This document shows positions 38,445 through 64,000 of a stretch of DNA of 64,000 nt, piece after piece. Within the stretch, counting starts at the first letter, position 1. The number at the start of each line of letters is the position of its first letter. Source of the stretch: Malus domestica (taxonomy: Eukaryota; Streptophyta; Magnoliopsida; Rosales; Rosaceae); NCBI RefSeq assembly GCF_042453785.1, contig NC_091670.1, positions 3,867,501 through 3,931,500 on the forward strand, written 5' to 3'. The notes beneath the pieces are model-generated. The model was not told the DNA's origin and ran no database searches. It worked only from the letters and a program-made list of their open reading frames with translations. A program made the translations under genes and the position numbers.

Positions 38445-38864
38445 GAACATGATTCCCTTCATGTATAAGTCTGCACATAGACTAATTTTATTTTATTATA
38501 GACTATTAAACTTTGAAGCCGACCCAACTTAGTGGAAAAATGCTTTGTTGTTATTGTGTAGACTATTAAACTTTAACACTAAACTAAGATGTATAATAGA
38601 GAAGAGATTTACTAACTTTATAGTTACTTTTATAAAAAAATGTATGAAATTTCAAAAAGGAAGGTTCTGAATTGAACTTGCTGCATGAAGCACCGTCCAA
38701 GAGATTTTTTATTTTATTTTTGGGTGAAGTACCGATTTAGTCCCTAAACTATTAGTATCCGATTCTTAGTTACTAAATTTAATTTTGAAAAAATTAGTAT
38801 CCGATTCTTAGTTACTAATGTTCTTTGATTGAAACCTTATTAGTTTTCAAATTTTGATCAAAGT

Positions 38865-39506
38865 TGTAACATCCCACATCGCCCAGGGGAGCGATCCTTA
38901 AATGTGTATTCCCATCCCTACCTAGCACGAGGCCTTTTGGGAGCTCACTGGCTTCGGGTTCCGTCGGAACTCCGAAGTTAAGCGAGAAGGGGGCTAGAGC
39001 ACTCCCAGGATGGGTGACCCACTGGGAAGTTGCTCGTGAGTTCCCAGAAACAAAACCGTGAGGGCGTGGTCGGGGCCCAAAGCGGACAATATCGTGCTAC
39101 GGTGGTGGAGCGGGCCCGGGAAGTGATCCGCATTGGGCCGGGATGTGACAATTTGGTATCAGAGCCTAACCCTGGCCGTGGTGTGCCGACGAGGACGTCG
39201 GGCCCCTAAGGGGGGTGGATTGTAACATCCCACATCGCCCAGGGGAGCGATCCTTAAATGTGTATTCCCATCCCTACCTAGCACGAGGCCTTTTGGGAGC
39301 TCACTGGCTTCGGGTTCCGTCGGAACTCCGAAGTTAAGCGAGAAGGGGGCTAGAGCACTCCCAGGATGGGTGACCCACTGGGAAGTTGCTCGTGAGTTCC
39401 CAGAAACAAAACCGTGAGGGCGTGGTCGGGGCCCAAAGCGGACAATATCGTGCTACGGTGGTGGAGCGGGGCCGGGAAGTGATCCGCCCCGGGCCGGGAT
39501 GTGACA
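38865..39506. mobile_element. Cassandra TRIM retrotransposon (fossil), structurally complete, two 286-bp LTRs
   Basis: LTRs at 38,865-39,150 and 39,221-39,506 start TGTAACATCCCACATCGCCC and end GGGATGTGACA. Each holds a 5S-rRNA-like core (for example 'aactccgaagttaagcgaga' and 'aggatgggtgacccactggg'), the defining feature of Cassandra. The 70-bp interior starts with a primer-site-like 'atttggtatcagagcc' and ends with a purine tract; there is no coding capacity, as is normal for TRIMs. A 5-bp target duplication (aaagt) is intact at 38,860-38,864 and 39,507-39,511. The LTRs differ at about four positions, so insertion is recent (order of a million years or less, rough). Unit 2 has the empty site at 53,625-53,629. 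Confidence 0.95.
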
Positions 39507-39511
39507 AAAGT

Positions 39512-41277
39512 CCCTAGCATTAATATAATAATAAATTTACATATCAGTTATATAATTTTTAAAACAAAAACTAATAATTGATTTAGGATTTTAATACTCA
39601 CACCTTTAGTAAACTCCTAACTAATTTTCAATTCAAAACATTTCCAAAATAAAAAAAAAAATTAGAATAAGTTTGTACTCCTTAATTTTTTATAAAAAGG
39701 TCTCCAATTTTTTAATCTTATATGTACCCATTCATGTAATTTTTCAAATTTTTAATCTTAAAATGTACCCATTCTTAAATATACCAATTTGTTGTAGTAA
39801 AATGTACCCTTTTTTCATATATAAAATCTATTCAATTTTTTCCTAATCCATTTTTAAACTTATATGGGTACATTATTTTTCCGTATTTGAGAATGTATCC
39901 ATGTCAAGTTTAATCAAAGAAATTTACTAATGTTATGAAGCCAAATATCTATTATTTTTTGTGTGGTTTTGAAGAATGTACCCATATTTTGGTACAATAA
40001 TTTTTTTTGTTAATTTTGATGAATGTACCCACGTTTATATACATACACACACACACACAAAATATATTGGAGAGTATAATTTATATTTTAATAATTTTAA
40101 TCAACAAATTATGGGTTTTATTTATTTAAAATCTCATTAATACAAACAACTATAAATTTCAATTTTTAATTTAAAAAATATAATAACCTGCATGAAAATA
40201 CATTATCACATTAATTTCAGGGACTTCGATAAAAAATTGAAAACCAACAAGGTTTCAGTAAAAGAATATTAATAATTAGGGACCGTATCCAAAGTGATCC
40301 TTTAATTTTTTTAACTAGCATTGTCATAGTGTTCTAAGAAACCATACTTGGGTAGTTTCACATGCCTTGTCATCTTGTGGGTATTTACATTATTAATTAG
40401 CTTGAATTTAACAATAATATTGTGCTAACTCCCCTGCAAATATCCTCACGGGTGCACACTCCCCGCCGATATATAATAACCTTTTGTTGAAAAAGCTTTT
40501 GTTTGCCTTCCATGCAACCCACGTTAGAATTAGTATAAGGACTTTAATTAGTTAGGCTAAATGGTAAAATATTAAGGGTAAAGTTAGGGAGACTAAATTT
40601 TGTAAACTGATGATGTAGTTGTTAATGTTTTGATTATTACGTCAATTAGTTTACAAATTTAGTTCAAAATTTTAATCTCCCTAACAGTACTCAAATATTA
40701 AAGGTAATTCAAAGCCGCTTCATTATTATTCTTTATGTTTAGTGACAAACGTTATAGTGTACTCGGATCACAAGGCAGAATGTATCGTAATATACATAGA
40801 AAGAATCGTGTCAATAATTATCTTTCATAGAGCGATATGTTTGTTTTCAATACTCAAAATGTTCATTAGTAAATGTCAAATTGCGTTTAGGATTCATATC
40901 ATAGGGATTCGATGTGAAGAACAAAGCGTTGATTGTAAACTACCTGACGCACTCCTCCTTCCCCTTTATCCGGGCTTGGGACCGGCAACATAAGCTAAAT
41001 TTACACGTGTAGAGTTAAATATAAGAAAATGTATGTAGTATTTGGAATTAACGAAAAACTTAGCACAAACCAGAGCGCAGACCCTACTATTGAGATATGG
41101 TTTAGTGGTGGTGGTGCTGTAAATGTCAAATTACAAAATGAAAATATATTAAAATAAAGGATGAAAATAAGTAATGTGAACAATGATCTAATGTGTATAT
41201 ATATACACACACACCAAGATGCAGAGATATAAGCTCCCACCATCAACCATACGAGGTAGGTAGTGGAGAAAGAAAAC
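39512..41277. other. AT-rich upstream region of gene B
   Basis: Non-coding, with scattered 'tgtaccc' words and an (AC)n run near 40,044-40,060. The promoter of the citrate-binding-like gene B lies at the right end. The same DNA in unit 2 (53,630-55,357) has small indels, a shorter 'tgtaccc' block and a longer AC tract. Confidence 0.6.
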
Positions 41278-42527
41278 ATGAGAGGTTACCTTCTCTCCTT
41301 GTTTTTTCTGGGCTCACTGAAAGACATCATTCAGTTATGTGGTGCTGATCCGACTGATGGCTTCGTCGATGTTCCGTTAACGGAATATAATTCCGAATTA
41401 CAGAAACCGTATGACGTACCACTGGAGGAGCGCTACAGTTTTGTCAATGGTGTAAGGCGTTTGTGGGTCTATGCTGATGACAAGCCCCATGACCCTAATA
41501 GCCAAACCCAGCCACGTACTGAAGTTCGCATGAGGGTACGCCTCCTAACCTGCTATATATGACTAGCCCCATAATCCTACTGATAAATGTTTATGTTGGT
41601 ATATGATGGATTTGATTAGATTGATTTTTTTACTGAATATGTTGTTCAGATCACAGTTTTATGAATAAGTCTCTTATGTTGTCAGACAGTCTAATAGAAT
41701 ACCTTTGTCTTGTATATATATTATAAATACTCCTACATTGTCAAATGATTTGACAAAAGAGAACATTACTCTATATATACCGTGAGCAAGAATTACTTGT
41801 CAAAATATGAATCTTAGTCATTGATCATGTTAAATTTTATCAAATGTTTGATTTTACATTTAGACAGTGAATATAAACTATCGATCAAGTTGACTTATAT
41901 GGTCCATATATATATATATATATATATAGTTTGCCAACATAAATCTAACAAGAAAAAAATGCTTCCTTATAAATACTTATACGGATGCTTCCTTATAAAT
42001 CCTTATATGGATTTGTTTGTGCTTTTTTGCCATGCGTTGTATATGTTTTATGTGGAACGCTTCTAGAACGGGTAGTCCAGATTCATATATTGTCCGACGA
42101 AAAAGCAATCATTAGTTGGCGCTAACTAAGTTTTATGCAGGGATTTGACTACTCATCTGGAATATGGCAATTTGAAGGGTATGGATTTGTGCCAAATGGA
42201 ACCTCTGGTGCTACAGTAGCACAGATCCATGGAGCAGCTAAGGGTGCTACGACTATAATCCTAAGAATCTATAACGGCGACATGAGGTATTATAGTCGAG
42301 ATTTGGTGGGTACAAATCTTTACGATAAGTGGTTCAGACTTAACATAATCCATGACGTCGACGGAGGGAGCGTGACTATTTTCATTGACGGAGTCCAGAA
42401 ATTTCGGGTGAAGGATCAAGGGCCAGGAGATTTGTACTTCAAATGTGGAGTTTATGCTGCACCGGCTAACATTACCTACTACATGGAATCACGTTGGAAA
42501 GACATTGAAATATATAAAAAGTACTGA
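41278..42527 (+). CDS. Citrate-binding protein-like, alginate lyase 2 domain, secreted (paralogue B)
   Basis: Two exons (41,278-41,535 and 42,141-42,527) encode 214 aa. ATG at 41,278 is chosen because it begins a signal peptide (MRGYLLSLFFLGSLKDIIQL, cleavage near CGA before DPTDGF); the frame is open upstream only from a GTG. The alginate-lyase-2 jelly roll shows PRTEVRM (79-85), YSSGIWQFEG (90-99), Q114-I-H116 and YFKCGVYA (185-192), which match the three PL7 lyase signatures, the last without the usual Asn-Gln. Whether it binds citrate-like acids, as reported for the Hevea protein, or cleaves uronic polymers is open. The 605-bp intron holds an AT microsatellite. A transposon-like element begins about 7 bp after the stop codon and must supply the 3' UTR. 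Protein identical to paralogue C. Confidence 0.88.
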
Positions 42528-42533
42528 TGACTA

Positions 42534-43688
42534 CCGAGGCCAGTCTTGAGATTTTAGAGACCTTGTGCAAGATCCAAACGGGGCCCTTACATGGCCTAAA
42601 ATTTTGGTTGCTATATTTTCTTTTATACTTTTTATTTTTTATGTGTAAAAATTGATATAACGCACAAGAAAATAAATAAAAATGAAACATGGTGTGTTGG
42701 GTTTGTGTATCTATCTGCATCCCTTATGTTTTTGGGTTCAAAACTCCTTGCTTTTTAATAGAAAAAGCATGGCACGGTGGATATGTACTTATCATATCAC
42801 CATTCAAATATTATAATTAGAACTATTCTTGCTCTTTATTATCATCCAGAGTTCATCTCAAGAAAAATTTATGTGTTAAACAAATCATTGATATATGGAT
42901 GACAAAATGGTTTTCAAATAAAATGAAAATTAGATGACCATCAAATAGTGACTAGAAAATAAATGGTTAAATGATATCGTATAAGAAAAAAAATGAGGCT
43001 TTTAAAGATTATATCTTCAAACTTTTAAAATTTTAATTTATTATGACATTCCTAATTATAGATTTATTAGCAAAAGTTATCTTTTATAATGAAAGAAAAT
43101 AACTACATATATTTAAAACAAGAAAACAACAGTGTAGCTAAAAAAGCCTAGAGAAGGTAATCGTGCGGCACACTCTGTGGCATCTGTTGCATTCAAAAAT
43201 GAAGGGAAGTATATTTGGGCTTGTATTGGTCCTCAAATCTTGTTTAATACTCGGAGGATGTAATTGTATCCATTTGTATCTAACAATATCTATCTACCTT
43301 TGAAGAAAAAAAAAACCCTCAAAACATGCCCAATATGAAATAAACACAGCTGAAAAAAAATTCATAATTAAAAATAAATGTATCCATTAGTATTTAATAA
43401 TACTTATCTAGCTTTGGAGGAAGAAAAAAACCCCAAAAAATGCCCAATATGAAATAAACACGGCTGAAAAAAAATTCATAATTAAAAATATAGGTAACCA
43501 CGGAATCGAACGTGTGCACACCTAGATAGCAAAAACAATGCTTGCCAAATCGGCTATGACAACGTCGTTTGATATGCTCACGTTTATAGTATATATCTAG
43601 TATATTACAAAGGTTATTAAATTTAGGGGCCCCAAAAAACGGGGGCCCTGTGCGGTCTCACTCCTCGCACCCCCTCAAGGCTGGCCCT
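42534..43688. mobile_element. hAT-like non-autonomous transposon after the stop codon of gene B
   Basis: The ends 'gaggccagtcttgag' (42,536 on) and, as reverse complement of the right end, 'agggccagccttgag' are inverted repeats, and 'gatgacta' (8 bp, possibly 9) is repeated at 42,526-42,533 and 43,689-43,696. An 8-bp duplication and such termini suit hAT. The left target copy overlaps the TGA stop of gene B. The element contains a 118-bp internal tandem repeat (43,259-43,493) and GC-rich sub-ends. No transposase. Present in both units, so it predates the duplication. Confidence 0.75.
43259..43493. repeat. Two ~118-bp tandem repeats inside the hAT-like element
   Basis: Both copies contain 'tgcccaatatgaaataaaca' followed by 'gctgaaaaaaaattcataat'. 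Also present in unit 2 near 57,347-57,581. Confidence 0.85.
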
Positions 43689-44446
43689 GATGACTACTGT
43701 TGAAGTGAACTATTATGCTAGCTAGCTAGCTTTATATATAGAGATGTTTCCATGTCAATGCAATGCAAGCTTCCACAGCTTCAAAGTATAACCATGTAAC
43801 TTAAGATTGGTTGATTGGGTGTCTGCTCACAAGCGTTTTTGTTAAAAGTGTTTGTAGTATAAACATGTTAAAATTTTCATTCAAATCCAAGTACTTGCTA
43901 AAAAATGTTGTTGTATATGGTCATAAGTACTTTTAGTTACAAAAAGCACTTCTAATTCTCTATCAGCAATCCCAAATGACCCTTAGTATATTCACTAATT
44001 ATTTTTAGTTGAGTAATTATTAAAGTTACTGACGAAATTTTTTTTATTAAAGTTGTCTAATTGATAATATTAAGAGGAAATTTACATTTTTCTTTATTTT
44101 TTTGGTATTTGATTATGGATTTTAGAGGAAATTTACATTTTTCGTTTTCTTCGCGTTATTTTGGTAAACACATGGAGAAATTAGAAAGTGAAATATTTTT
44201 TTCATCCGTATTTTAGTAAACAACATTATACTTTTTCATTTCTCAAATGTCACCATTGTTAGTGAAATCTAGCTCGTTGCACCCTTAAGACTGACAACAC
44301 TACAAAACTAACCCCTCGAAAAGAATGAAAATTACAGTTTGATCCCCAATTACAGTTTGATCCTAATTCGGCAAATTCCCCAATGCCTTCCCCAACTACT
44401 TTTCCCTTTTTGCCCTTATTGCTGAGTGGTTTCGCTCCTCTCGTGT

Positions 44447-44932
44447 CTATTTTCCTTTGACCTTGCTGCCCTTTCCCCTTTGCCCTTTGCCCTTTTTGCC
44501 CTTTTTGCCTTTTGGTGCGTCGTTTAGAGCCTCGGCCTTGTCGTATCCTCCCTGTTCGCCCTCCTCCTGGTGCTGTCCAATGGCGGTTGGCTTCTTCTTG
44601 ACCTCTACGATCTCGGTGATTCGTTTGAATTGCAGACGGAGAGGGGGACGGGCCTTGTCTGAAATCTGTTTCATCATTCCGGCGTTTGGATTGCTTTTGG
44701 CAGTAGTGAAAGAAGCGGTCCATTGGTTGTCGTCGCGGAGTTCGATCGCCAGTTTGACATCCTCAGGCGTATGCACGTATGCATCAGTCCATAGCTTGAG
44801 ATTAGAAATGTTTCGGTTGAGATTTTCTTGCGATTTAGCAAGAACCTGCTGGGATCCTTGAACGGCGCGGAGATCCGTCAGCGATTGAAATTTGCAGGCG
44901 CCACCGGACATGAAGGCACTGAACGCCGCCAT
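44447..44932 (-). CDS. Unknown 161-aa protein with lysine-rich tail (unit 1 copy)
   Basis: A single-exon frame beginning MAAFSAFMSGGACKFQSLTD. The first 110 residues look like a folded mixed helix/strand domain (NLKLWTDAYVHTPEDVKLAI, then LRDDNQWTASFTTAKSNPN). The end is a highly basic low-complexity tail rich in KGK/GKKGKKGK, plausible for nucleic-acid binding or nucleolar targeting (inference). I do not recognise the family. Support for a real gene: identical frame in unit 2, non-random composition, a TATA-like 'cttataaaagc' on the minus strand (45,184-45,195) and a telo-box repeat in the leader. No intron is needed. A different-frame Ser/Leu-rich reading at 44,878-45,291 is leader sequence. 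Confidence 0.55.
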   Translation of the reverse strand: MAAFSAFMSGGACKFQSLTDLRAVQGSQQVLAKSQENLNRNISNLKLWTDAYVHTPEDVKLAIELRDDNQWTASFTTAKSNPNAGMMKQISDKARPPLRLQFKRITEIVEVKKKPTAIGQHQEEGEQGGYDKAEALNDAPKGKKGKKGKGQRGKGSKVKGK

Positions 44933-44956
44933 CTGAAGAAGGAGAGAGTGTTAGTG

Positions 44957-44972
44957 TTAGGGTTAGGGTTAG
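44957..44972 (-). promoter_or_regulatory. Telo-box-like repeat in the leader of the Lys-rich gene
   Basis: CTAACCCTAACCCTAA on the minus strand, 25 bases before the ATG at 44,932. Telo-boxes (AAACCCTAA and variants) near start sites are common in plant genes for ribosome and translation components. Repeated at 59,045-59,060 in unit 2. Confidence 0.5.
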
Positions 44973-45041
44973 AGAGTGTAGAGAGAGGGGAGAGAAGAGA
45001 GAAAAAAGAGAGAGGAGAGAGGAGAGAGAAGAGGATACCTC

Positions 45042-45160
45042 TGCGCTGCGGTGGTTTTGAGAGCAGAGAGCAGAGAGAGATGCGCTGCGGTAGTTTCTTG
45101 AGAGCAGAGAGCAGAGAGAGATGCGCTGCGGTGGTTTCTTGAGAGATAGACTGAATTTTT
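45042..45160. repeat. Three ~40-bp tandem repeats in the leader/promoter of the Lys-rich gene
   Basis: 'tgcgctgcggt' recurs at 45,042, 45,081 and 45,122, with GAGAGCAGAGAGCAGAGAGA between. A GA-rich tract precedes it (44,970-45,040). The GA/CT sense is pyrimidine-rich in the transcript, as often seen in plant leaders. Confidence 0.85.
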
Positions 45161-45299
45161 GGAATGAATTGCACCGGGTGGCTGCTTTTATAAGCGAATT
45201 GGAGGGAAATGGAGGGAAAAAGTGTGCAATTTATAGGTTTTCTGCGTGTGGTTTGTATCAGGTTATGGGCAAGGATAATGGGCGATTCCACGTAAGTTT

Positions 45300-46612
45300 T
45301 CTAAATATGCCTCACATATAACGAGTGTTTTCTTAAAATGCCACTGAGTATGCCTAGCTCACACATGAGTACAGCAGCAGCAAGTTGGTAACTTATTTTA
45401 TGAAACCGTGAGACCACACCAGAGTAAGCAGGCCGTATGCCTTTAATGAAAATTTGCATCTTATGCACTCTTCCTACGCTGCGCATCACTGAAATGATTC
45501 TATGCTAATGATTCATCAGACTCTTGGAGTGACACCAAACAAAGGAGTCTGCTAATGATGATTTGGTTTGTTGATTTACTAACAATGAGGATATGTTTCC
45601 ACAGCGTTATGTGAAACTTGCTGCTGTAAAAGAGTGAATTTCTGGTAGGCACGGGATTGTAAGTGTTTGCCCAATTATAACACGCTTATTTGTCTTCATC
45701 AACTTAGTTTTCTCCCACTCCCTACTCACATGTATCATCATCCGCACAGAATTCGCGGTATACTTTTTTCACTTCGTTGGTCAAATTGCTCAAATTCAAA
45801 GTGTAAAAAAGCTGCAGAATTCAGTGCTGATCATGCGCGCTATGGCATTCTTCAGTTTTATCGCTTACTTCAAAGGCAAGTATGGCTCTGATGATTCTGA
45901 TACAGCAAAAGTCCTGTAAATGCATTAGACGAGAGTGGAGTGGATCCATCTGGTTGAGGCTTTGAATGCTTTTGAAGATTTAGCTACTGGCCCCTCAAAG
46001 CCTTTGTATATTGAACTATAACCTGCTATATATGGCCGAGTTCGGGGCCATAACTACCTTCAATTCATTACGAGCCAGTAATCAAACCAACGAATTTGTT
46101 GACGTCTCACTCGTGCAAGGGACTTGCTATTCATTGATCACAGACGACATTAAATGACTTCGAAAAAGATGATTTAAACTGCAAAATCATCAGCTCGTCC
46201 AGAAACTCAATCCTTGATGGTCAAATGACATATCCCAAAACCAATGTGGTTTAAAATCTCATCAAAGGCATAACTGCGGAACTTATTCTGAACAGGATAA
46301 ATTGCGCAAAACAAAATATTAAGAGAGAATTGGCCTTGGAGCCATGATAGAAGAGGGTGGATGGATCTATTCCCCTAGCAAAATGACTTGAGAAAGCCTA
46401 CAGTTAATACCAAATTTGAAAGTATACGCTGTCCTGAAGACTTGCCATGCTTTAGAATGTTGTGCTTCCCAAGTTCTATAAGGCTTGTGAAATGAACAAC
46501 ATCCAGTCGAACGTAGGCATTAATAAGTAAGCCGAAACAAATTAAGCGCAAGTGTCCACGAGGACCATAACTTAAACTAAAATAAACGTAACGATCGATC
46601 ATGACAACTGAG
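45300..46612. other. Intergenic region between the Lys-rich and DUF2828 genes
   Basis: No gene supported; open frames are short. It should contain the 3' UTR of the DUF2828 gene at its right end and the Lys-rich gene's upstream promoter at its left end. Practically identical to 59,388-60,700. Confidence 0.6.
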
Positions 46613-48520
46613 TCAGTCCACCACAGCAAGATTTAAGTACTCTTTGTCACAGATGGCGGATTCCAGGGCATGCTTGGGGCCAACTTCCCCCTCAGTATCC
46701 AGGAACAACTTGATGAAATTGTCCGAGTAGCCGGTGAGGATGGTCACCCCTGGTATTCTTGAAGGAGGCTCGACACAGTTGCCGGCAGCGCCCTTGTTCC
46801 ACAACTGCCAGAACACTATGTGTGGCACCGCATCCCCATAACCTTTCTCCTCAAACTTTCTTTGTATTGCCCGGTAAGTAGTTGGCCAGTGACCGTCGGC
46901 ATTAGATATCTCAAAGCCATAATGAGTGAAAACTAGCACCTTCTTGATCATTTGCTCCGGCTTCAAATTGGCATTCACAGCCTCTTGGAGGATCAAATCA
47001 AGCACCGTGTGGAAAGGACAAGTTTCGGTGTGGTCCATGCCCCTCAGAAAGGCACACTGGGACTTGAGATCATTTCCACCTTGTATCAGACGCAGATCAG
47101 GATATCGAGCGAAAGGGACGACCTTTCCTTTCCAGGGCTGTTCACTCAGCTGAGACACCAGTAACCCAAAAGCCACCGACACATCCTGACCTCGCAGACT
47201 CGTGGGCTTCGAGACGTTACATACAGCCAAGCAATTCTTCCACTTGCCTTTGTTGAACAAGTCCTCCACCATTGCCTTCCAGTGAAGTTGAGCAACGTCC
47301 CCTACATCGGGATTGTCCACATAGTGTATCACCCTATGCGGAAGCAGCAGCAGCAGCGAAGTAGGTTCATCATCAATCTTAATCTCGCAGCGGCCGGCTT
47401 TCACGTCCTCCAGATACTGTTTAATCCTACACTTGCCGCCAAAAGTGTCATAACATGTCATCCTCCTCACTGGCAGCAAAACCTCCTTGGTCAGCCGGCT
47501 TCGCGCTCTTGACGTGTAATCGGCCTCCTCTTCAATACTTTTTTTTTTCGGACGTACCTCTTCAAGACCTTGGTATCCATCTTGTCGCGGAAAAAGCTTC
47601 CTCGCAATGCTTTCACACAGCTGCGTGGCAGCCCGGTAGCCAGCGTATGGGAGACATGCCGCAGCCCAGCTAAACTCGATATAATTATCATCACCATCCT
47701 CGTTCTCATTCATCCTCTTGTTCTTGCTCTTCAACTTTTCAATATCAGACTTTAGGTAGTTTGCGAAAAAACCAGAAACCCGGTCGTGTAAAAACTGAAA
47801 ATCAGGGTCGCGATGGTACATCTCGGCAGCCTTGTTGGCAATGGCAATGGTCTTGTCTCTGATTCGACAATGGACGTCATCAGAATTTGAGTGTTGGCTG
47901 CTGATTAGTTGTAGAAGAACAAGGCGGTAGATAATCTCGACAAAATCGCGACCGGAGTTGCCGGCAAGGGGCTCGATGTTGGAGGCTAAGGTTTTGGGGT
48001 GGTTGTGGTGGAGCCATAGCAAGGCACTGTGGAACAATTCATAGTCGGTGGTTTGTCCGAGATAACGAATGAGCTTGAGGGTGGTGAGGGGACTGTGGAA
48101 CCAGGCCAGCGGCAGAAGTTGCTGGTTTAGATATCTGTGAGAGGAGGCGGAGGCTTTCTGCCTGTAGGAGGAATTCACCTCTACAGCCAACAGAAAACGC
48201 AACAGATCAATGCAGGGGTTAGTGTTAACACTCTCCAACTCCAACCCCGATTCGGATTCCAATTCCGTTACATCCTCCTCCTCCTCAATATTAATCTCAT
48301 TTGAAGAGAAATTTGAGCATAATTTCAGTGGCCTCTGTGGTGGATATTTACTGTTAGGAGGAGCAAATACCAGTGCCATTGATCTCAAACTAGTATTATA
48401 AGGACGAATTATTGGGAGCTGAGAAATATTGTTATCGATATTATTCTTGTGTGCTTCTACCCTGAAGGGGGAGAGAATTTTACCCATAGCTTTCATCATG
48501 ACGTCAGACTGCGACTGCAA
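46613..48520 (-). CDS. DUF2828 (DUF2828/DUF7788, vWA-like) plant protein, unit 1 copy
   Basis: A single-exon 635-aa protein. The N-terminal 100 residues are variable with an acidic stretch (INIEEEEDVTELESESGLEL). The all-helical DUF2828 region (about 105-370) has YLGQTTDYELFHSALLWLHH and FSWAAACLPYAGY. The C-terminal vWA-like part (about 425-630) has NCLAVCNVSKPTS, VVPFARYPDLRLIQGG and PHIVFWQLWNKG. In typical members the first motif is CDVSGSMSG, the metal-site D-x-S-x-S; here it is N435-x-S437-x-P439, and the later VF(T/S)DMEF Asp is His in VFTHYGFE, so metal binding is probably lost. Function is unknown. Residues 389-393 are a Leu run encoded by CTG/GCT-type triplets, one unit longer than in unit 2. 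A MULE is inserted 107 bp upstream of the start codon. Confidence 0.9.
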   Translation of the reverse strand: MQSQSDVMMKAMGKILSPFRVEAHKNNIDNNISQLPIIRPYNTSLRSMALVFAPPNSKYPPQRPLKLCSNFSSNEINIEEEEDVTELESESGLELESVNTNPCIDLLRFLLAVEVNSSYRQKASASSHRYLNQQLLPLAWFHSPLTTLKLIRYLGQTTDYELFHSALLWLHHNHPKTLASNIEPLAGNSGRDFVEIIYRLVLLQLISSQHSNSDDVHCRIRDKTIAIANKAAEMYHRDPDFQFLHDRVSGFFANYLKSDIEKLKSKNKRMNENEDGDDNYIEFSWAAACLPYAGYRAATQLCESIARKLFPRQDGYQGLEEVRPKKKSIEEEADYTSRARSRLTKEVLLPVRRMTCYDTFGGKCRIKQYLEDVKAGRCEIKIDDEPTSLLLLLPHRVIHYVDNPDVGDVAQLHWKAMVEDLFNKGKWKNCLAVCNVSKPTSLRGQDVSVAFGLLVSQLSEQPWKGKVVPFARYPDLRLIQGGNDLKSQCAFLRGMDHTETCPFHTVLDLILQEAVNANLKPEQMIKKVLVFTHYGFEISNADGHWPTTYRAIQRKFEEKGYGDAVPHIVFWQLWNKGAAGNCVEPPSRIPGVTILTGYSDNFIKLFLDTEGEVGPKHALESAICDKEYLNLAVVD

Positions 48521-48627
48521 CTGCGGGAGACCAAGAACGAGGCGGAGAGGCGGCTGCTTATCTTGGTTTAGGGCACCAAGAACAACTCCACTACGTCTTT
48601 ATTAGAAGAGAGTTAGGAACTCAGGAC

Positions 48628-49554
48628 GGCCAGGGATCTGCTGTCCCCAAATATATGTTTCGTCCATGTCTCCTCTTCAATTTTTAAACACGTGTCCTAT
48701 GCCTTAACTTAAAGTTAACAGTGTTAACTTTTCTAATTCATTAAGAGAGATGCGGCCATTTTCTGGGGAAAGTGAAGGCCAGAGCCCATCGCCTCCTCCT
48801 CTCCTCCCGTCTGCAACATATCCCCTCCGGTAAACCCGCTTGCACGCACGCCCCAACAAAACCCGATCCCGGACTTCCTTCGAAACCCGCTCGCAGCTTT
48901 TCGGCGAATTGGCATTTCTTTATCTTCAGGATTTAGTTTCACCAACATTTCACTGCAGGTCAATTCTGAAACTTCTTCTTCATTTGGTGTTTGTTGCTGG
49001 AATTTCAATACCCATTTGCTTGTTTTGATTTTTTCCAGCCGCCCGTTTGGTTTTCGATTGGTAGACTTGAAAAGTTTGGATTTTTAATTTGGTTTGGTGA
49101 GTTTAGATGATGGGTTTTCTGTAATTGTTTTGGGATTAATACCAATTTGCTTGTTTTAATGTGTTCATGCTACCCATTTAGTTATCAATTGGTGAAGTTA
49201 GAGAAGTTTGAATTTTAATTTTAGTTTTGGTTAGAAATTGGGGTTTGTGTAATTTTTGATGGGTTGTTTTGATGTTTTTCAGCTACCCATTTATTTATCA
49301 ATCCTCCTACGCTGCTTCGCCGATGAGAGATAGAAAGAGAGAGTGGAAAGAAGCTTCAAGGACGGTGAGAATTGTCGTCGGCTTCGACTCAATACTTCCA
49401 GTGTTGAGTTTTGTTGTGTTTATTATTTTAATTTTCTTTAATGAATTAGAAAAGTTAACACTGTTAACTTTGAGTTAAGGCATAGGACACGTGTTCAAAA
49501 ATTAAAAAGGAGACATGAACGAGATACAAATTAGGGGACAGCAGATCCCTGGCC
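48628..49554. mobile_element. Non-autonomous MULE with 117-bp TIRs and 9-bp target duplication
   Basis: Terminal inverted repeats 48,628-48,744 and 49,438-49,554 start GGCCAGGGATCTGCTGTCCC and match at about 107 of 117 positions. The target duplication 'actcaggac' (48,619-48,627 and 49,555-49,563) is 9 bp, the Mutator signature. The interior (about 690 bp) has no transposase. It holds GC-rich, gene-like pieces (48,760-48,960; 49,300-49,400) separated by T-rich intron-like DNA, so it may be a Pack-MULE carrying host gene fragments. Unit 2 keeps the empty site at 62,704-62,712. The 91-codon minus-strand frame spanning its left part is not convincing as a gene. Confidence 0.93.
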
Positions 49555-49563
49555 ACTCAGGAC

Positions 49564-51744: not shown

Positions 51745-52190
51745 TACACTATTTCTCAAGATGAATGAAGATAACTCACACTATTTCAGAAACTGAACCA
51801 AAATAGCCCACATTGTTTCTAGAAGTACAACAAAATAACTCACACTGTTTCTCAAACTAAACCAAAATAATCAACACTATTTATGGAACTGCAGCAAAAT
51901 AATCAACGCTATTTCTGAAACTATAGCAAAATAACTCACACTATTTCTGAAACCACAGCAAAATAATCTACACTATTTCTGGAATTAAATCAAAATAACT
52001 CACACTATTTCTGAAATTACAGCAAAATAACCTACACTATTTCTGAAACTAAACCAAAATAACTCACACTATTTCTGAAACTATAGGAAAATAACTTACA
52101 CTATTTCTGAAACTGAACAAAAATAAACCATACTATTTCTTAAGCTGAACCAAAATAACACACATTATTTTTGAAGCTATAGCAACATAG
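51745..52190. repeat. ~33-bp minisatellite, about 13-14 units, at the junction of the two units
   Basis: Units have the form 'actatttctgaaactaaacc' plus 'aaaataactcac', with many variants. The array ends a few bases before unit 2 begins at 52,195. Confidence 0.9.
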
Positions 52191-52340
52191 ACTAATTCCC
52201 TTCATGTATAAGTCTGCACATAGACTAATTTTATTTTATTATAGACTATTAAACTTTGAAGCCGACCCAACTTAATGGAAAAATGCTTTGTTGTTATTGT
52301 GTAGACTATTAAACTTTAACACTAAACTAAGATGTATAAT

Positions 52341-53537: not shown

Positions 53538-54103
53538 ACTAAATTTAATTTTGAAAAAATTAGTATCCGATTCTTAGTTACTAATGTTCTTTGATGAAAC
53601 CTTATTAGTTTTCAAATTTTGATCAAAGTCCCTAGCATTAATGCAATAATAAATTTACATATCAGTTATATAATTTTTAAAACAAAAACTAATAATTGAT
53701 TTAGGATTTTAATACTCACACCTTTAGTAAACTCCTAACTAATTTTCAATTCAAAACATTTCCAAAATAAAAAAAAAATTAGAATAAGTTTGTACTCCTT
53801 AATTTTTTATAAAAAGGTCTCCAATTTTTTAATCTTATATGTACCCATTCTTAAATATATCAATTTGTTGTAGTAAAATGTACCCTTTTTTCATATATAA
53901 AATCTATTCAATTTTTTCCTAACCATTTTTAAACTTATATGAGTACATTATTTTTCCATAAATCCATGTCAAGTTTAATCAAAGAAATTTACTAATGTTA
54001 TGAAGCCAAATATCTATTATTTTTTGTGTGGTTTTGAAGAATGTACCCATATTTTGGTACAATAATTTTTTTTGTTAATTTTGATGAATGTACCCACGTT
54101 TAT

Positions 54104-54140
<37 letters not shown>

Positions 54141-55357
54141 ATATATTGGAGAGTATAATTTATATTTTAATAATTTTAATCCACAAATTATGGGTTTTAT
54201 TTATTTAAAATCTCATTATTACAAACAACTATAAATTTCAATTTTTAATTTAAAAAATATAATAACCTACATGAAAATACATTATCACATTAATTTCAGG
54301 GACTTCGATAAAAAATTGAAAACCAACAAGGTTTCAGTAAAAGAATATTGATAATTAGGAACCGTATCCAAAGTGATCCTTTAATTTTTTTTAACTAGCA
54401 TTGTCATAGTGTTCTAAGAAACCATACTTGGGTAGTTTCACATGCCTTGTCATCTTGTGGGTATTTACATTATTAATTAGCTTGAATTTAACAATAATAT
54501 TGTGCTAACTCCCCTGCAAATATCCTCACGGGTGTACACTCCCCGCCGATATATAATAACCTTTTGTTGAAAAAGCTTTTGTTTGCCTTCCATGCAACCC
54601 ACGTTAGAATTAGTATAAGGACTTTAATTAGTTAGGCTAAATGGTAAAATATTAAGGGTAAAGTTAGGGAGACTAAATTTTGTAAACTGATGATGTAGTT
54701 GTTAATGTTTGGATTATTACGTCAATTAGTTTACAAATTTAGTTCAAAATTTTAATCTCCCTAACAGTACTCAAATATTAAAGGTAGTTCAAAGCCGCTT
54801 CATTATTATTCTTTGTGTTTAGTGACAAACGTTATAGTGTACTCGGATCACAAGGCAGAATGTATCGTAATATAAATAGAAAGAATCGTGTCAATAATTA
54901 TCTTTCATAGAGCGATATGTTTGTTTTCAATACTCAAAATGTTCATTAGTAAATGTCAAATTGCGTTTAGGATTCATATCATAGGGATTCGATGTGAAGA
55001 ACAAAGCGTTGATTGTAAACTACCTGACGCACTCCTCCTTCCCCTTTATCCGGGCTTGGGACCGGCAACATAAGCTAAATTTACACGTGTAGAGTTAAAT
55101 ATAAGAAAATGTATGTAGTATTTGGAATTAACGAAAAACTTAGCACAAACCAGAGCGCAGACCCTACTATTGAGATATGGTTTAGTGGTGGTGGTGCTGT
55201 AAATGTCAAATTACAAAATGAAAATATATTAAAATAAAGGATGAAAATAAGTAATGTGAACAATGATCTAATGTGTATATATATACACACACACCAAGAT
55301 GCAGAGATATAAGCTCCCACCATCAACCATACGAGGTAGGTAGTGGAGAAAGAAAAC

Positions 55358-55983
55358 ATGAGAGGTTACCTTCTCTCCTTGTTTTTTCTGGGCTCACTGA
55401 AAGACATCATTCAGTTATGTGGTGCTGATCCGACTGATGGCTTCGTCGATGTTCCGTTAACGGAATATAATTCCGAATTACAGAAACCGTATGACGTACC
55501 ACTGGAGGAGCGCTACAGTTTTGTCAATGGTGTAAGGCGTTTGTGGGTCTATGCTGATGACAAGCCCCATGACCCTAATAGCCAAACCCAGCCACGTACT
55601 GAAGTTCGCATGAGGGTACGCCTCCTAACCTGCTATATATGACTAGCCCCATAATCCTACTGATAAATGTTTATGTTGGTATATGATGGATTTGATTAGA
55701 TTGATTTTTTTACTGAATATGTTGTTCAGATCACAGTTTTATGAATAAGTCTCTTATGTTGTCAGACAGTCTAATAGAATACCTTTGTCTTGTATATATA
55801 TTATAAATACTCCTACATTGTCAAATGATTTGACAAAAGAGAACATTACTCTATATATACCGTGAGCAAGAATTACTTGTCAAAATATGAATCTTAGTCA
55901 TTGATCATGTTAAATTTTATCAAATGTTTGATTTTACATTTAGACAGTGAATATAAACTATCGATCAAGTTGACTTATATGGT

Positions 55984-56019
<36 letters not shown>

Positions 56020-56615
56020 TGCCAACATAAATCTAACAAGAAAAAAATGCTTCCTTATAAATACTTATACGGATGCTTCCTTATAAATCCTTATATGGAT
56101 TTGTTTGTGCTTTTTTGCCATGCGTTGTATATGTTTTATGTGGAACGCTTCTAGAACGGGTAGTCCAGATTCATATATTGTCCGACGAAAAAGCAATCAT
56201 TAGTTGGCGCTAACTAAGTTTTATGCAGGGATTTGACTACTCATCTGGAATATGGCAATTTGAAGGGTATGGATTTGTGCCAAATGGAACCTCTGGTGCT
56301 ACAGTAGCACAGATCCATGGAGCAGCTAAGGGTGCTACGACTATAATCCTAAGAATCTATAACGGCGACATGAGGTATTATAGTCGAGATTTGGTGGGTA
56401 CAAATCTTTACGATAAGTGGTTCAGACTTAACATAATCCATGACGTCGACGGAGGGAGCGTGACTATTTTCATTGACGGAGTCCAGAAATTTCGGGTGAA
56501 GGATCAAGGGCCAGGAGATTTGTACTTCAAATGTGGAGTTTATGCTGCACCGGCTAACATTACCTACTACATGGAATCACGTTGGAAAGACATTGAAATA
56601 TATAAAAAGTACTGA
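55358..56615 (+). CDS. Citrate-binding protein-like, alginate lyase 2 domain, secreted (paralogue C)
   Basis: Unit 2 copy of paralogue B: exons 55,358-55,615 and 56,229-56,615, 214 aa, with the same protein sequence throughout, including the signal peptide and the PRTEVRM, QIH and YFKCGVY motifs. The intron is 8 bp longer, wholly in the AT microsatellite (55,987-56,017). The hAT-like element follows the stop codon as in unit 1. Full identity of exons and near identity of the intron mean very recent duplication, gene conversion, or that the two copies are alleles. Confidence 0.88.
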
Positions 56616-56621
56616 TGACTA

Positions 56622-57776
56622 CCGAGGCCAGTCTTGAGATTTTAGAGACCTTGTGCAAGATCCAAACGGGGCCCTTACATGGCCTAAAATTTTGGTTGCT
56701 ATATTTTCTTTTATACTTTTTATTTTTTATGTGTAAAAATTGATATAACGCACAAGAAAATAAATAAAAATGAAACATGGTGTGTTGGGTTTGTGTATCT
56801 ATCTGCATCCCTTATGTTTTTGGGTTCAAAACTCCTTGCTTTTTAATAGAAAAAGCATGGCACGGTGGATATGTACTTATCATATCACCATTCAAATATT
56901 ATAATTAGAACTATTCTTGCTCTTTATTATCATCCAGAGTTCATCTCAAGAAAAATTTATGTGTTAAACAAATCATTGATATATGGATGACAAAATGGTT
57001 TTCAAATAAAATGAAAATTAGATGACCATCAAATAGTGACTAGAAAATAAATGGTTAAATGATATCGTATAAGAAAAAAAATGAGGCTTTTAAAGATTAT
57101 ATCTTCAAACTTTTAAAATTTTAATTTATTATGACATTCCTAATTATAGATTTATTAGCAAAAGTTATCTTTTATAATGAAAGAAAATAACTACATATAT
57201 TTAAAACAAGAAAACAACAGTGTAGCTAAAAAAGCCTAGAGAAGGTAATCGTGCGGCACACTCTGTGGCATCTGTTGCATTCAAAAATGAAGGGAAGTAT
57301 ATTTGGGCTTGTATTGGTCCTCAAATCTTGTTTAATACTCGGAGGATGTAATTGTATCCATTTGTATCTAACAATATCTATCTACCTTTGAAGAAAAAAA
57401 AAACCCTCAAAACATGCCCAATATGAAATAAACACAGCTGAAAAAAAATTCATAATTAAAAATAAATGTATCCATTAGTATTTAATAATACTTATCTAGC
57501 TTTGGAGGAAGAAAAAAACCCCAAAAAATGCCCAATATGAAATAAACACGGCTGAAAAAAAATTCATAATTAAAAATATAGGTAACCACGGAATCGAACG
57601 TGTGCACACCTAGATAGCAAAAACAATGCTTGCCAAATCGGCTATGACAACGTCGTTTGATATGCTCACGTTTATAGTATATATCTAGTATATTACAAAG
57701 GTTATTAAATTTAGGGGCCCCAAAAAACGGGGGCCCTGTGCGGTCTCACTCCTCGCACCCCCTCAAGGCTGGCCCT
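56622..57776. mobile_element. hAT-like non-autonomous transposon, unit 2 copy
   Basis: Counterpart of 42,534-43,688, with the same termini, internal tandem repeat and 'gatgacta' target duplication overlapping the stop codon of paralogue C. Confidence 0.75.
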
Positions 57777-58534
57777 GATGACTACTGTTGAAGTGAACTA
57801 TTATGCTAGCTAGCTAGCTTTATATATAGAGATGTTTCCATGTCAATGCAATGCAAGCTTCCACAGCTTCAAAGTATAACCATGTAACTTAAGATTGGTT
57901 GATTGGGTGTCTACTCACAAGCGTTTTTGTTAAAAGTGTTTGTAGTATAAACATGTTAAAATTTTCATTCAAATCCAAGTACTTGCTAAAAAATGTTGTT
58001 GTATATGGTCATAAGTACTTTTAGTTACAAAAAGCACTTCTAATTCTCTATCAGCAATCCCAAATGACCCTTAGTATATTAACTAATTATTTTTAGTTGA
58101 GTAATTATTAAAGTTACTGACGAAATTTTTTTTATTAAAGTTGTCTAATTGATAATATTAAGAGGAAATTTACATTTTTCTTTATTTTTTTGGTATTTGA
58201 TTATGGATTTTAGAGGAAATTTACATTTTTCGTTTTCTTCGCGTTATTTTGGTAAACACATGGAGAAATTAGAAAGTGAAATATTTTTTTCATCCGTATT
58301 TTAGTAAACAACATTATACTTTTTCATTTCTCAAATGTCACCATTGTTAGTGAAATCTAGCTCGTTGCACCCTTAAGACTGACAACACTACAAAACTAAC
58401 CCCTCGAAAAGAATGAAAATTACAGTTTGATCCCCAATTACAGTTTGATCCTAATTCGGCAAATTCCCCAATGCCTTCCCCAACTACTTTTCCCTTTTTG
58501 CCCTTATTGCTGAGTGGTTTCGCTCCTCTCGTGT

Positions 58535-59020
58535 CTATTTTCCTTTGACCTTGCTGCCCTTTCCCCTTTGCCCTTTGCCCTTTTTGCCCTTTTTGCCTTT
58601 TGGTGCGTCGTTTAGAGCCTCGGCCTTGTCGTATCCTCCCTGTTCGCCCTCCTCCTGGTGCTGTCCAATGGCGGTTGGCTTCTTCTTGACCTCTACGATC
58701 TCGGTGATTCGTTTGAATTGCAGACGGAGAGGGGGACGGGCCTTGTCTGAAATCTGTTTCATCATTCCGGCGTTTGGATTGCTTTTGGCAGTAGTGAAAG
58801 AAGCGGTCCATTGGTTGTCGTCGCGGAGTTCGATCGCCAGTTTGACATCCTCAGGCGTATGCACGTATGCATCAGTCCATAGCTTGAGATTAGAAATGTT
58901 TCGGTTGAGATTTTCTTGCGATTTAGCAAGAACCTGCTGGGATCCTTGAACGGCGCGGAGATCCGTCAGCGATTGAAATTTGCAGGCGCCACCGGACATG
59001 AAGGCACTGAACGCCGCCAT
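58535..59020 (-). CDS. Unknown 161-aa protein with lysine-rich tail (unit 2 copy)
   Basis: Same protein as at 44,447-44,932, without a single residue change, with the same TATA-like box (59,272-59,283), telo-box repeat and ~40-bp leader repeats. Family not recognised. Confidence 0.55.
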   Translation of the reverse strand: MAAFSAFMSGGACKFQSLTDLRAVQGSQQVLAKSQENLNRNISNLKLWTDAYVHTPEDVKLAIELRDDNQWTASFTTAKSNPNAGMMKQISDKARPPLRLQFKRITEIVEVKKKPTAIGQHQEEGEQGGYDKAEALNDAPKGKKGKKGKGQRGKGSKVKGK

Positions 59021-60700
59021 CTGAAGAAGGAGAGAGTGTTAGTGTTAGGGTTAGGGTTAGAGAGTGTAGAGAGAGGGGAGAGAAGAGAGAAAAAAGAGAG
59101 AGGAGAGAGGAGAGAGAAGAGGATACCTCTGCGCTGCGGTGGTTTTGAGAGCAGAGAGCAGAGAGAGATGCGCTGCGGTAGTTTCTTGAGAGCAGAGAGC
59201 AGAGAGAGATGCGCTGCGGTGGTTTCTTGAGAGATAGACTGAATTTTTGGAATGAATTGCACCGGGTGGCTGCTTTTATAAGCGAATTGGAGGGAAATGG
59301 AGGGAAAAAGTGTGCAATTTATAGGTTTTCTGCGTGTGGTTTGTATCAGGTTATGGGCAAGGATAATGGGCGATTCCACGTAAGTTTTCTAAATATGCCT
59401 CACATATAACGAGTGTTTTCTTAAAATGCCACTGAGTATGCCTAGCTCACACATGAGTACAGCAGCAGCAAGTTGGTAACTTATTTTATGAAACCGTGAG
59501 ACCACACCAGAGTAAGCAGGCCGTATGCCTTTAATGAAAATTTGCATCTTATGCACTCTTCCTACGCTGCGCATCACTGAAATGATTCTATGCTAATGAT
59601 TCATCAGACTCTTGGAGTGACACCAAACAAAGGAGTCTGCTAATGATGATTTGGTTTGTTGATTTACTAACAATGAGGATATGTTTCCACAGCGTTATGT
59701 GAAACTTGCTGCTGTAAAAGAGTGAATTTCTGGTAGGCACGGGATTGTAAGTGTTTGCCCAATTATAACACGCTTATTTGTCTTCATCAACTTAGTTTTC
59801 TCCCACTCCCTACTCACATGTATCATCATCCGCACAGAATTCGCGGTATACTTTTTTCACTTCGTTGGTCAAATTGCTCAAATTCAAAGTGTAAAAAAGC
59901 TGCAGAATTCAGTGCTGATCATGCGCGCTATGGCATTCTTCAGTTTTATCGCTTACTTCAAAGGCAAGTATGGCTCTGATGATTCTGATACAGCAAAAGT
60001 CCTGTAAATGCATTAGACGAGAGTGGAGTGGATCCATCTGGTTGAGGCTTTGAATGCTTTTGAAGATTTAGCTACTGGCCCCTCAAAGCCTTTGTATATT
60101 GAACTATAACCTGCTATATATGGCCGAGTTCGGGGCCATAACTACCTTCAATTCATTACGAGCCAGTAATCAAACCAACGAATTTGTTGACGTCTCACTC
60201 GTGCAAGGGACTTGCTATTCATTGATCACAGACGACATTAAATGACTTCGAAAAAGATGATTTAAACTGCAAAATCATCAGCTCGTCCAGAAACTCAATC
60301 CTTGATGGTCAAATGACATATCCCAAAACCAATGTGGTTTAAAATCTCATCAAAGGCATAACTGCGGAACTTATTCTGAACAGGATAAATTGCGCAAAAC
60401 AAAATATTAAGAGAGAATTGGCCTTGGAGCCATGATAGAAGAGGGTGGATGGATCTATTCCCCTAGCAAAATGACTTGAGAAAGCCTACAGTTAATACCA
60501 AATTTGAAAGTATACGCTGTCCTGAAGACTTGCCATGCTTTAGAATGTTGTGCTTCCCAAGTTCTATAAGGCTTGTGAAATGAACAACATCCAGTCGAAC
60601 GTAGGCATTAATAAGTAAGCCGAAACAAATTAAGCGCAAGTGTCCACGAGGACCATAACTTAAACTAAAATAAACGTAACGATCGATCATGACAACTGAG

Positions 60701-62605
60701 TCAGTCCACCACAGCAAGATTTAAGTACTCTTTGTCACAGATGGCGGATTCCAGGGCATGCTTGGGGCCAACTTCCCCCTCAGTATCCAGGAACAACTTG
60801 ATGAAATTGTCCGAGTAGCCGGTGAGGATGGTCACCCCTGGTATTCTTGAAGGAGGCTCGACACAGTTGCCGGCAGCGCCCTTGTTCCACAACTGCCAGA
60901 ACACTATGTGTGGCACCGCATCCCCATAACCTTTCTCCTCAAACTTTCTTTGTATTGCCCGGTAAGTAGTTGGCCAGTGACCGTCGGCATTAGATATCTC
61001 AAAGCCATAATGAGTGAAAACTAGCACCTTCTTGATCATTTGCTCCGGCTTCAAATTGGCATTCACAGCCTCTTGGAGGATCAAATCAAGCACCGTGTGG
61101 AAAGGACAAGTTTCGGTGTGGTCCATGCCCCTCAGAAAGGCACACTGGGACTTGAGATCATTTCCACCTTGTATCAGACGCAGATCAGGATATCGAGCGA
61201 AAGGGACGACCTTTCCTTTCCAGGGCTGTTCACTCAGCTGAGACACCAGTAACCCAAAAGCCACCGACACATCCTGACCTCGCAGACTCGTGGGCTTCGA
61301 GACGTTACATACAGCCAAGCAATTCTTCCACTTGCCTTTGTTGAACAAGTCCTCCACCATTGCCTTCCAGTGAAGTTGAGCAACGTCCCCTACATCGGGA
61401 TTGTCCACATAGTGTATCACCCTATGCGGAAGCAGCAGCAGCGAAGTAGGTTCATCATCAATCTTAATCTCGCAGCGGCCGGCTTTCACGTCCTCCAGAT
61501 ACTGTTTAATCCTACACTTGCCGCCAAAAGTGTCATAACATGTCATCCTCCTCACTGGCAGCAAAACCTCCTTGGTCAGCCGGCTTCGCGCTCTTGACGT
61601 GTAATCGGCCTCCTCTTCAATACTTTTTTTTTTCGGACGTACCTCTTCAAGACCTTGGTATCCATCTTGTCGCGGAAAAAGCTTCCTCGCAATGCTTTCA
61701 CACAGCTGCGTGGCAGCCCGGTAGCCAGCGTATGGGAGACATGCCGCAGCCCAGCTAAACTCGATATAATTATCATCACCATCCTCGTTCTCATTCATCC
61801 TCTTGTTCTTGCTCTTCAACTTTTCAATATCAGACTTTAGGTAGTTTGCGAAAAAACCAGAAACCCGGTCGTGTAAAAACTGAAAATCAGGGTCGCGATG
61901 GTACATCTCGGCAGCCTTATTGGCAATGGCAATGGTCTTGTCTCTGATTCGACAATGGACGTCATCAGAATTTGAGTGTTGGCTGCTGATTAGTTGTAGA
62001 AGAACAAGGCGGTAGATAATCTCGACAAAATCGCGACCGGAGTTGCCGGCAAGGGGCTCGATGTTGGAGGCTAAGGTTTTGGGGTGGTTGTGGTGGAGCC
62101 ATAGCAAGGCACTGTGGAACAATTCATAGTCGGTGGTTTGTCCGAGATAACGAATGAGCTTGAGGGTGGTGAGGGGACTGTGGAACCAGGCCAGCGGCAG
62201 AAGTTGATGGTTTAGATATCTGTGAGAGGAGGCGGAGGCTTTCTGCCTGTAGGAGGAATTCACCTCTACAGCCAACAGAAAACGCAACAGATCAATGCAG
62301 GGGTTAGTGTTAACACTCTCCAACTCCAACCCCGATTCGGATTCCAATTCCGTTACATCCTCCTCCTCCTCAATATTAATCTCATTTGAAGAGAAATTTG
62401 AGCATAATTTCAGTGGCCTCTGTGGTGGATATTTACTGTTAGGAGGAGCAAATACCAGTGCCATTGATCTCAAACTAGTATTATAAGGACGAATTATTGG
62501 GAGCTGAGAAATATTGTTATCGATATTATTCTTGTGTGCTTCTACCCTGAAGGGGGAGAGAATTTTACCCATAGCTTTCATCATGACGTCAGACTGCGAC
62601 TGCAA
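60701..62605 (-). CDS. DUF2828 (vWA-like) plant protein, unit 2 copy
   Basis: 634 aa. Differs from the unit 1 copy by one Leu fewer in the Leu run (about 389-392) and Gln133 changed to His (YLNHQLL instead of YLNQQLL). The degenerate metal-site motif CNVSKPTS is shared, so that change predates the duplication. Its upstream region lacks the MULE: the intact target 'actcaggac' is at 62,704-62,712, 98 bp before the start codon. The frame is open over the whole family length, so it is probably functional as far as coding goes. Confidence 0.9.
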   Translation of the reverse strand: MQSQSDVMMKAMGKILSPFRVEAHKNNIDNNISQLPIIRPYNTSLRSMALVFAPPNSKYPPQRPLKLCSNFSSNEINIEEEEDVTELESESGLELESVNTNPCIDLLRFLLAVEVNSSYRQKASASSHRYLNHQLLPLAWFHSPLTTLKLIRYLGQTTDYELFHSALLWLHHNHPKTLASNIEPLAGNSGRDFVEIIYRLVLLQLISSQHSNSDDVHCRIRDKTIAIANKAAEMYHRDPDFQFLHDRVSGFFANYLKSDIEKLKSKNKRMNENEDGDDNYIEFSWAAACLPYAGYRAATQLCESIARKLFPRQDGYQGLEEVRPKKKSIEEEADYTSRARSRLTKEVLLPVRRMTCYDTFGGKCRIKQYLEDVKAGRCEIKIDDEPTSLLLLPHRVIHYVDNPDVGDVAQLHWKAMVEDLFNKGKWKNCLAVCNVSKPTSLRGQDVSVAFGLLVSQLSEQPWKGKVVPFARYPDLRLIQGGNDLKSQCAFLRGMDHTETCPFHTVLDLILQEAVNANLKPEQMIKKVLVFTHYGFEISNADGHWPTTYRAIQRKFEEKGYGDAVPHIVFWQLWNKGAAGNCVEPPSRIPGVTILTGYSDNFIKLFLDTEGEVGPKHALESAICDKEYLNLAVVD

Positions 62606-63509
62606 CTGCGGGAGACCAAGAACGAGGCGGAGAGGCGGCTGCTTATCTTGGTTTAGGGCACCAAGAACAACTCCACTACGTCTTTATTAGAAGAGAGGTA
62701 GGAACTCAGGACTCCATTCGACTCCTTGTTTTTTGGGATCCACTCATCGAACTCTTATTAGAAGAGTAAGACTGACACACATGTACCAGAAGCATAGAGA
62801 TACGATGTGATACACCATGTGTTCCTATATAAACCTGCCCTTTGACTCATTTTGAGGAGATTTTTCAGTGTGACCGTCAAACGATGTGATACACCATGTG
62901 TTCCTATATAAATGGTGAGTTATGCGTTTTAAAAGATTAACAACTTAAAAATTAAATTTTTCACCACTTGCATAAAAACACATGGTGTATCATCTATTTT
63001 CTTGTCACAACTAAAAATTTCTCTTTGACGTGGGCTTATCAAAGAATCAGATTTTGACATCATGTAAACATTCGATTAGATCTCACTCTGATATTTATCA
63101 AATATTAATCCACAAGTCATATTTGATAATTCATAAGAAAAACTAATGAAAAAAGGAACTTTGAGTTTTAATGAAAAATCATCATATAACTTTATTTAAT
63201 AATTAGTACAAAGTTGAATATTAAACAAGTCCAATTAAAATAGCCCACCCAAAATAACATATTGATTTCTCTGTTTTGACCCTGACGTTTTTGGGTTATG
63301 TTTGTTTTGTTTTCCGTTAGTTTAGTCATGTCGAAGAACTGAGTTATAAAGGCCAATCACTTCACTTTTGCAGATTTTTTAATTTAGGGTTTTGAATTGA
63401 TTGCTTTCTGTTATCCAGCTAGGGATTTTTGGCCTTTAGGAACTTGATCAAATTAGGTTTTTTTTCCTTCTTGTTCCTGTTCAAAGAATCAAGCATAGAA
63501 GAAGAGGAG

Positions 63510-63647
63510 ATGGCGACAGAGGATGCAAAGCTGACAAGAGGGAACCAACTGCTAATAGTCAACGACAATCTCAGAGAAATGGGCAAGAAGGTCCGGCGAA
63601 GAAACAAAGAGACCAGAAATCATTTTCAATTCTTCAATTCTTGTTAA
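63510..63647 (+). CDS. Small 45-codon ORF, unknown (unit 2 copy)
   Basis: Counterpart of 50,330-50,467 with one Asn-to-Asp change; same basic stretch KKVRRRNKETR. Coding status unproven. Confidence 0.3.
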   Translation: MATEDAKLTRGNQLLIVNDNLREMGKKVRRRNKETRNHFQFFNSC

Positions 63648-64000
63648 TTCTTTTGGCCCCCTAGCTAAGATACGGGATGTTCGTTCAAATCTCTTACAGA
63701 TCCTCAGATGAAGAGTGCAATTTTGGTTTTTGGGATGACATTAAGAAGTCAGAAGAAGTTAAAATAGAGTTTTGATTCAATATGATGCAGTTGCTTGTAA
63801 TATTATGTTGTTCTTCTATCTTTGTCAATCAGAAAACACATACAGGAAGATGTAATCCAAAAAAAAAAACCAAATGAGTGTTTGGGATTTAAGATTTGAT
63901 ACCTGGGTTCTGAGATTGGATCGAAGAAAACGATTCATCCCCATATTTTTTAAATTTCTTTTATCTTCTGTAACAGAACATGCAAAGAATGAGAGTTCTT

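Follow-up and report, generated by a model that had tools for sequence, protein, structure and literature searches.

Several described processes leave near-identical blocks standing side by side in a genome. Duplications made by polymerase-theta-type (microhomology-mediated) end joining or template switching are head to tail, kilobases in size and have non-homologous ends, with a short insertion whose bases come from sequence next to the break. Two studies describe such a templated insertion at the join as a trace of polymerase-theta-type end joining (PMC12426944, PMC7368036), and one of them reports that, in BRCA1-deficient worms, Pol-theta is needed for tandem duplications (PMC7368036). Tandem duplicates that evolve in concert, through gene conversion between neighbours, may show a near-identical gene-bearing core between diverged edges. 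Finally, heterotype false duplications are described as adjacent near-identical blocks with allele-like differences (PMC9516828).

Here, we describe a locus on contig 10 of an apple (Malus domestica) assembly that has traits in common with each of these. Compared with polymerase-theta-type duplications, the pathway is read from one junction and the core appears to have been homogenised later. Compared with concerted evolution, the near-identical tract spans 7.8 kb, and an exchange between haplotypes would look alike. Unlike the heterotype false duplications outlined in that source (PMC9516828), the two copies are joined with no gap and with a templated-looking insertion at their junction. On account of these last two features, we consider that the locus is probably a genuine head-to-tail tandem duplication of ~13 kb, formed by end joining and with a core homogenised afterwards. 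Events of this kind are ordinary and well known, and our search of the open-licence literature found no apple report of the present duplication.

Results

Two collinear units in direct orientation

The window analysed is a 64,000-bp stretch (C10:3,867,501-3,931,500) of a 651-Mb assembly comprising 19 contigs, and was read together with 45 kb of flanking sequence (109 kb in total). It contains a block of ~13 kb that carries three or more gene-like reading frames and is present in two consecutive copies that are collinear and head to tail (Table 1). Self-comparison of the window recovered three direct matches, at 38452-38597/52195-52340 (99.3%), 38772-38864/53538-53629 (98.9%), and 39502-48627/53620-62712 (98.9% with gaps). 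A fourth match, 49555-52194/62704-65379 (96.4%), emerged when the chromosome was extended 35 kb past the window. The boundary between the units, at 52,195, is exact to a single base. The coordinates and the shared order that the initial annotation assigned to the two units are thus exact, as judged by the collinear direct matches. There is no N anywhere in the 109 kb, and hence no assembly gap between the copies.

Searches beyond the window recovered no third unit among the candidates scored, which were part of the total. The DUF2828 search (97 matches, 70 of 150 candidates scored) yielded only two near-identical matches, namely the window pair, and the next best by score had 44% identity. Similarly, the core search (102 matches, 40 of 1103 candidates scored) yielded only two full-length matches, both belonging to the window pair.

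Table 1 Coordinates of the features discussed (window positions unless marked C10)
Feature	Position	Strand	Details
Unit 1 of the tandem duplication	38452..52194	+	13,743 bp; self-comparison
Unit 2	52195..64000, on to 65,379 outside the window (C10:3,932,879)	+	Self-comparison
Near-identical core, unit 1	40796..48612	+	Against unit 2, the 7,814 aligned bp differ by 4 substitutions and 2 indels
Dispersed element, truncated copy in unit 1	49954..52189	+	32-bp minisatellite from about 51738
Dispersed element, fuller copy in unit 2	63134-65975		About 2.8 kb; forward array, then inverted array
Junction insertion, 5 bp (GACTA)	52190..52194	+	With flanks, equals the 13-mer of 38475-38487
Putative template of the junction insertion	38475..38487	+	Base 24 onward within the unit; in unit 2, from 52218
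TRIM-like small LTR element	38865..39506	+	Two 286-bp LTRs; ~70-bp interior with TGGTATCAGAGC; 5-bp target duplication AAAGT
MULE-like element, 927 bp	48628..49554	+	117-bp inverted ends (91%); 9-bp target duplication ACTCAGGAC
Unit-1 segment, 174 bp, replacing 1,197 bp of unit 2	38598..38771	+	
Unit-2 segment, 1,197 bp	52341..53537	+	Initial ~215-240 bp are a dispersed repeat
Citrate-binding-like gene, unit 1	41260..42524	+	Open stretches 41260-41559 and 42126-42524; PF08787 in the second
Lys-rich ORF, unit 1	44447..44932	-	161 aa; unit-2 copy 58535-59020 identical
DUF2828/DUF7788 gene, unit 1	46613..48499	-	628 aa, open frame
DUF2828/DUF7788 gene, unit 2	60701..62584	-	627 aa, open frame

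The junction carries a templated-looking insertion

At its right edge, unit 1 matches the minisatellite array of unit 2 letter by letter into 52,189 (corresponding to 65,374), after which come GACTA and then the start of unit 2. The 13-mer that spans this junction, ACATAGACTAATT, recurs near the left end of unit 1. The sequence CATAGACTA occurs three times when both strands of the 109 kb are searched: in the putative template, in its unit-2 copy, and at the junction. To gauge chance, matches at least as long were counted in simulated joins, and arose for 6 of 3000 random 5-bp insertions and for 5 of 4000 blunt joins made at random and altered at two bases, a chance of 0.001-0.002; the trial matches of length 29-30, comprising all six of the former and four of the five latter, are probably trivial ones that restore a parent sequence. 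A 13-mer with an identifiable source is the pattern of a templated insertion, although the junction bases could possibly be read instead as two adjacent substitutions in the array followed by a blunt join, a reading with which the match of three of the five bases to the unit-2 array agrees.

The exact identity leftward of 52195 and 38452 is 0 bp, and no self-match in the window or the extended chromosome continues left across 38452. The breakpoints are thus without extended homology, as in end joining. For the same two reasons, homology-driven unequal crossing over is disfavoured as the origin of the units.

The right breakpoint falls in one arm of an inverted minisatellite, ~150-180 bp off its centre. 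The two arms, which are imperfect (66-67% match), run forward at 64,956-65,503 and inverted at 65,549-65,961, and inverted minisatellite structures are generally held to be break-prone. The element that carries them is dispersed: contigs 11, 1, and 13 have partial copies of it, and among the candidates scored its array turned up alone at about 30 further sites. Neither the five junction bases nor the position of the right edge within a dispersed repeat had been remarked on initially.

The junction also bears on whether the duplication might be an assembly artefact, in which the assembler set both alleles of a single-copy locus in series, as a heterotype false duplication, and joined or gap-filled them without N. 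A templated insertion is a hallmark of error-prone end joining, and sequences joined by an assembler would not be expected to carry one. An overlap join, in particular, would not make a 5-bp insertion with a 13-mer source nearby. The scar resembles genuine repair of broken DNA more than an assembly error. The unbroken 109 kb likewise argue against an artefact, although wrong gap filling could still leave no N, and so does the chromosome-scale look of the assembly, with a telomere-like repeat opening contigs 7, 10, and 17. Within the bases fetched, 12 of the 17 chromosome-sized contigs open with N, which may represent withheld sequence, and in the 2 kb fetched per end no telomere-like repeat was seen at the far end of contig 10 or at either end of contig 1. 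Phasing would count against an artefact as well, if the assembly is GDT2T. One study presents GDT2T as a diploid phased genome and puts apple at about 650 Mb and 17 chromosomes (PMC13334179). On the other side, the units differ as two apple haplotypes would, by one-sided insertions, microsatellite lengths, and a mosaic density of SNPs. Moreover, earlier work indicates that unsupported sequence from wrong gap filling sometimes links false duplications (PMC9516828) and that phase switches occur in phased apple assemblies (PMC12917252). Weighing these points, we regard an artefact as unlikely.

Insertions and length differences between the units

The two transposon insertions, the microsatellite length differences, and the 1.2-kb segment that had been listed as distinguishing the units were all recovered. 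Both insertions lie in unit 1, and at the matching positions unit 2 has empty sites. The first is TRIM-like, having a short LTR pair, a putative primer binding site, a 5-bp target duplication, and no coding sequence (the one frame scanned was without a Pfam match). We take the TGGTATCAGAGC motif of its interior to be a tRNA-Met primer site. Its LTRs differ at four of 286 positions, three of which are adjacent, probably reflecting two events. The second insertion resembles non-autonomous MULEs in its long terminal inverted repeats and its target duplication of ~9 bp.

Two microsatellites vary in length, an AC-rich one by 14 bp and an (AT)n one by 8 bp, and in both cases the longer form is in unit 2. 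The unit-2 form of the 1.2-kb segment is probably the older one, since three short parts of 52748-53530 match an inverted paralogue near C10:3.588 Mb.

A near-identical core lies between diverged flanks

We counted the divergence between the units over their alignment from 39,507 to 52,189. The left part (to 40,795) carries 16 substitutions, equivalent to 14 events, in 1,236 bp, and the right part (49,555-51,737) carries 56 substitutions, or 37 events, in 2,182 bp; the minisatellite part adds 7 substitutions in 452 bp. The core holds only 4 of the 55 events found in the left part, core, and right part together (binomial P 3.7e-22, computed without the minisatellite or the single site 48,613). 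Divergence is 0.05% in the core vs 1.1-2.6% in the flanks, which are thus ~22-50 times as diverged. Scattered substitutions had been noted initially, and they are indeed present, but their uneven distribution, with four in the core against 51 events in the flanks, had gone unremarked.

This tract of near-identity ends abruptly inside diverged copies, as is expected of gene conversion. Single conversion tracts are usually shorter than 7.8 kb. Coding constraint was considered as the cause of the identity and rejected, since the core takes in non-coding spacers and a 1.2-kb repeat besides coding sequence. At rates that we assumed to lie between 3.9e-9 and 1.3e-8 per site per year, the core would date to ~20-66 thousand years and the flanks to ~0.4-2.2 million. 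The difference between the LTRs of the TRIM-like element falls broadly within the age range of the flanks, but comprises very few changes. We looked up nine substitutions in paralogues or in the contig 5 counterpart, and six could be polarised. The derived state was in unit 2 for all four core substitutions and in unit 1 for the flank sites 40,455 and 48,613.

Taken as sequence evidence, the contrast between flanks and core, together with the differing LTRs, suggests an earlier separation of the copies, with recency confined to the core. A simple tandem duplication of very young age, followed by the origin of every difference, would account for the low divergence of the 7.8-kb core and for three coding stretches that are identical. 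It is, however, highly improbable given the much greater divergence of the flanks (unless exchange with diverged haplotypes replaced these afterwards) and given that unit 1 harbours an LTR element whose LTRs already differ. The initial annotation had offered a very young duplication or joined haplotypes; the junction favours a real duplication, whereas the flanks and LTRs argue against "very young" as a description of the whole unit.

The mosaic does fit either copies of greater age whose core was homogenised recently or a pair of alleles with the core in common. Unit 2 may have come from the sister chromatid or from the homologue. It requires either recent conversion or exchange in the core, or a join between homologues that made the units former alleles. 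In the latter case, the join would have occurred between the homologous chromosomes of a heterozygous tree, and units 1 and 2 would each represent a different former allele. A real junction and an allele-like mosaic would then be explained without later gene conversion, and the haplotype-like differences would be former allelic differences that now stand side by side on one chromosome. We hold this origin to be a tentative one, and rather doubtful.

For the favoured duplication followed by homogenisation, we propose the following course. An end broken inside the minisatellite of the dispersed element would have set the right edge of the unit and been joined to a non-homologous site 13 kb leftward (38,452), through error-prone end joining or template switching. 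A few bases copied from just inside the unit would have left the 5-bp templated insertion. The copies may then have diverged by 1-3% towards their ends, with unit 1 gaining its two insertions, and the 7.8-kb gene-bearing core could recently have been made alike as the copies recombined, by gene conversion or unequal exchange.

Genes in the units and implications of the probable duplication

The units had been described as a four-gene block. At least three gene-like frames are present; a fourth gene was not identified in the 20 frames scanned against Pfam, out of 75 stop-to-stop frames of at least 55 aa in 38,000-52,400. Only two of these 20 had Pfam matches, to PF08787 and to DUF2828/DUF7788. 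The open stretches of the citrate-binding-like gene, whose coordinates are stop-to-stop limits and not exon borders, encode the same protein sequence in both units. The Lys-rich ORF has no Pfam match. Protein comparison upheld the reported identity of these two products, as well as the two changes ascribed to DUF2828: relative to unit 1, the unit-2 protein has Q126H and lacks one Leu at 382.

If the duplication is real, this chromosome has two open copies of the DUF2828/DUF7788 gene, the citrate-binding-like gene, and the Lys-rich ORF, affecting gene counts, dosage, and SNP calling locally; heterozygosity would be called falsely if the reads of both units were mapped to one of them. The junction would be a readable example of templated end joining. 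If, instead, the locus is an artefact, the annotation of the present assembly contains falsely duplicated genes. The locus is also a test case for a possible origin of tandem copies from two alleles in fruit trees that are clonal and heterozygous.

Surroundings and related loci

Directly after the citrate-binding-like coding sequence lies a dispersed repeat (42538-43692; unit-2 counterpart at +14,088). Its copies on contigs 4, 10, 6, and 16 match it at about 91-93% identity. Two nearby paralogues of the PF08787 region, which are partial and inverted and are located at C10:3.52 and 3.585 Mb, lack almost the whole of it.

The counterpart of the locus on contig 5, over the 50 kb compared, holds fragments of one DUF2828 copy, several of them with stop codons. 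Their identity is 71-81% at the DNA level and 60-68% in the DUF2828 search. Parts of the left flank, from -8040 to -995 relative to the window (C10:3,859,460-3,866,505), are common to C5:2,900,098-2,910,969. The decayed DUF2828 on contig 5 (C5:2,893,328-2,898,195) lies on the opposite side of this shared flank, and gene order therefore differs between the two chromosomes.

Within the window, 24224-24613 is a diverged inverted relative (~64% DNA identity) of the second PF08787 coding stretch, and the one frame tried around it contains stops. Farther to the left, at 2348-3868, a 507-aa open frame encodes MULE transposase domains (PF10551, PF00872, and PF03108), the only Pfam match among the 9 frames scanned of the 14 listed for the first 38 kb.
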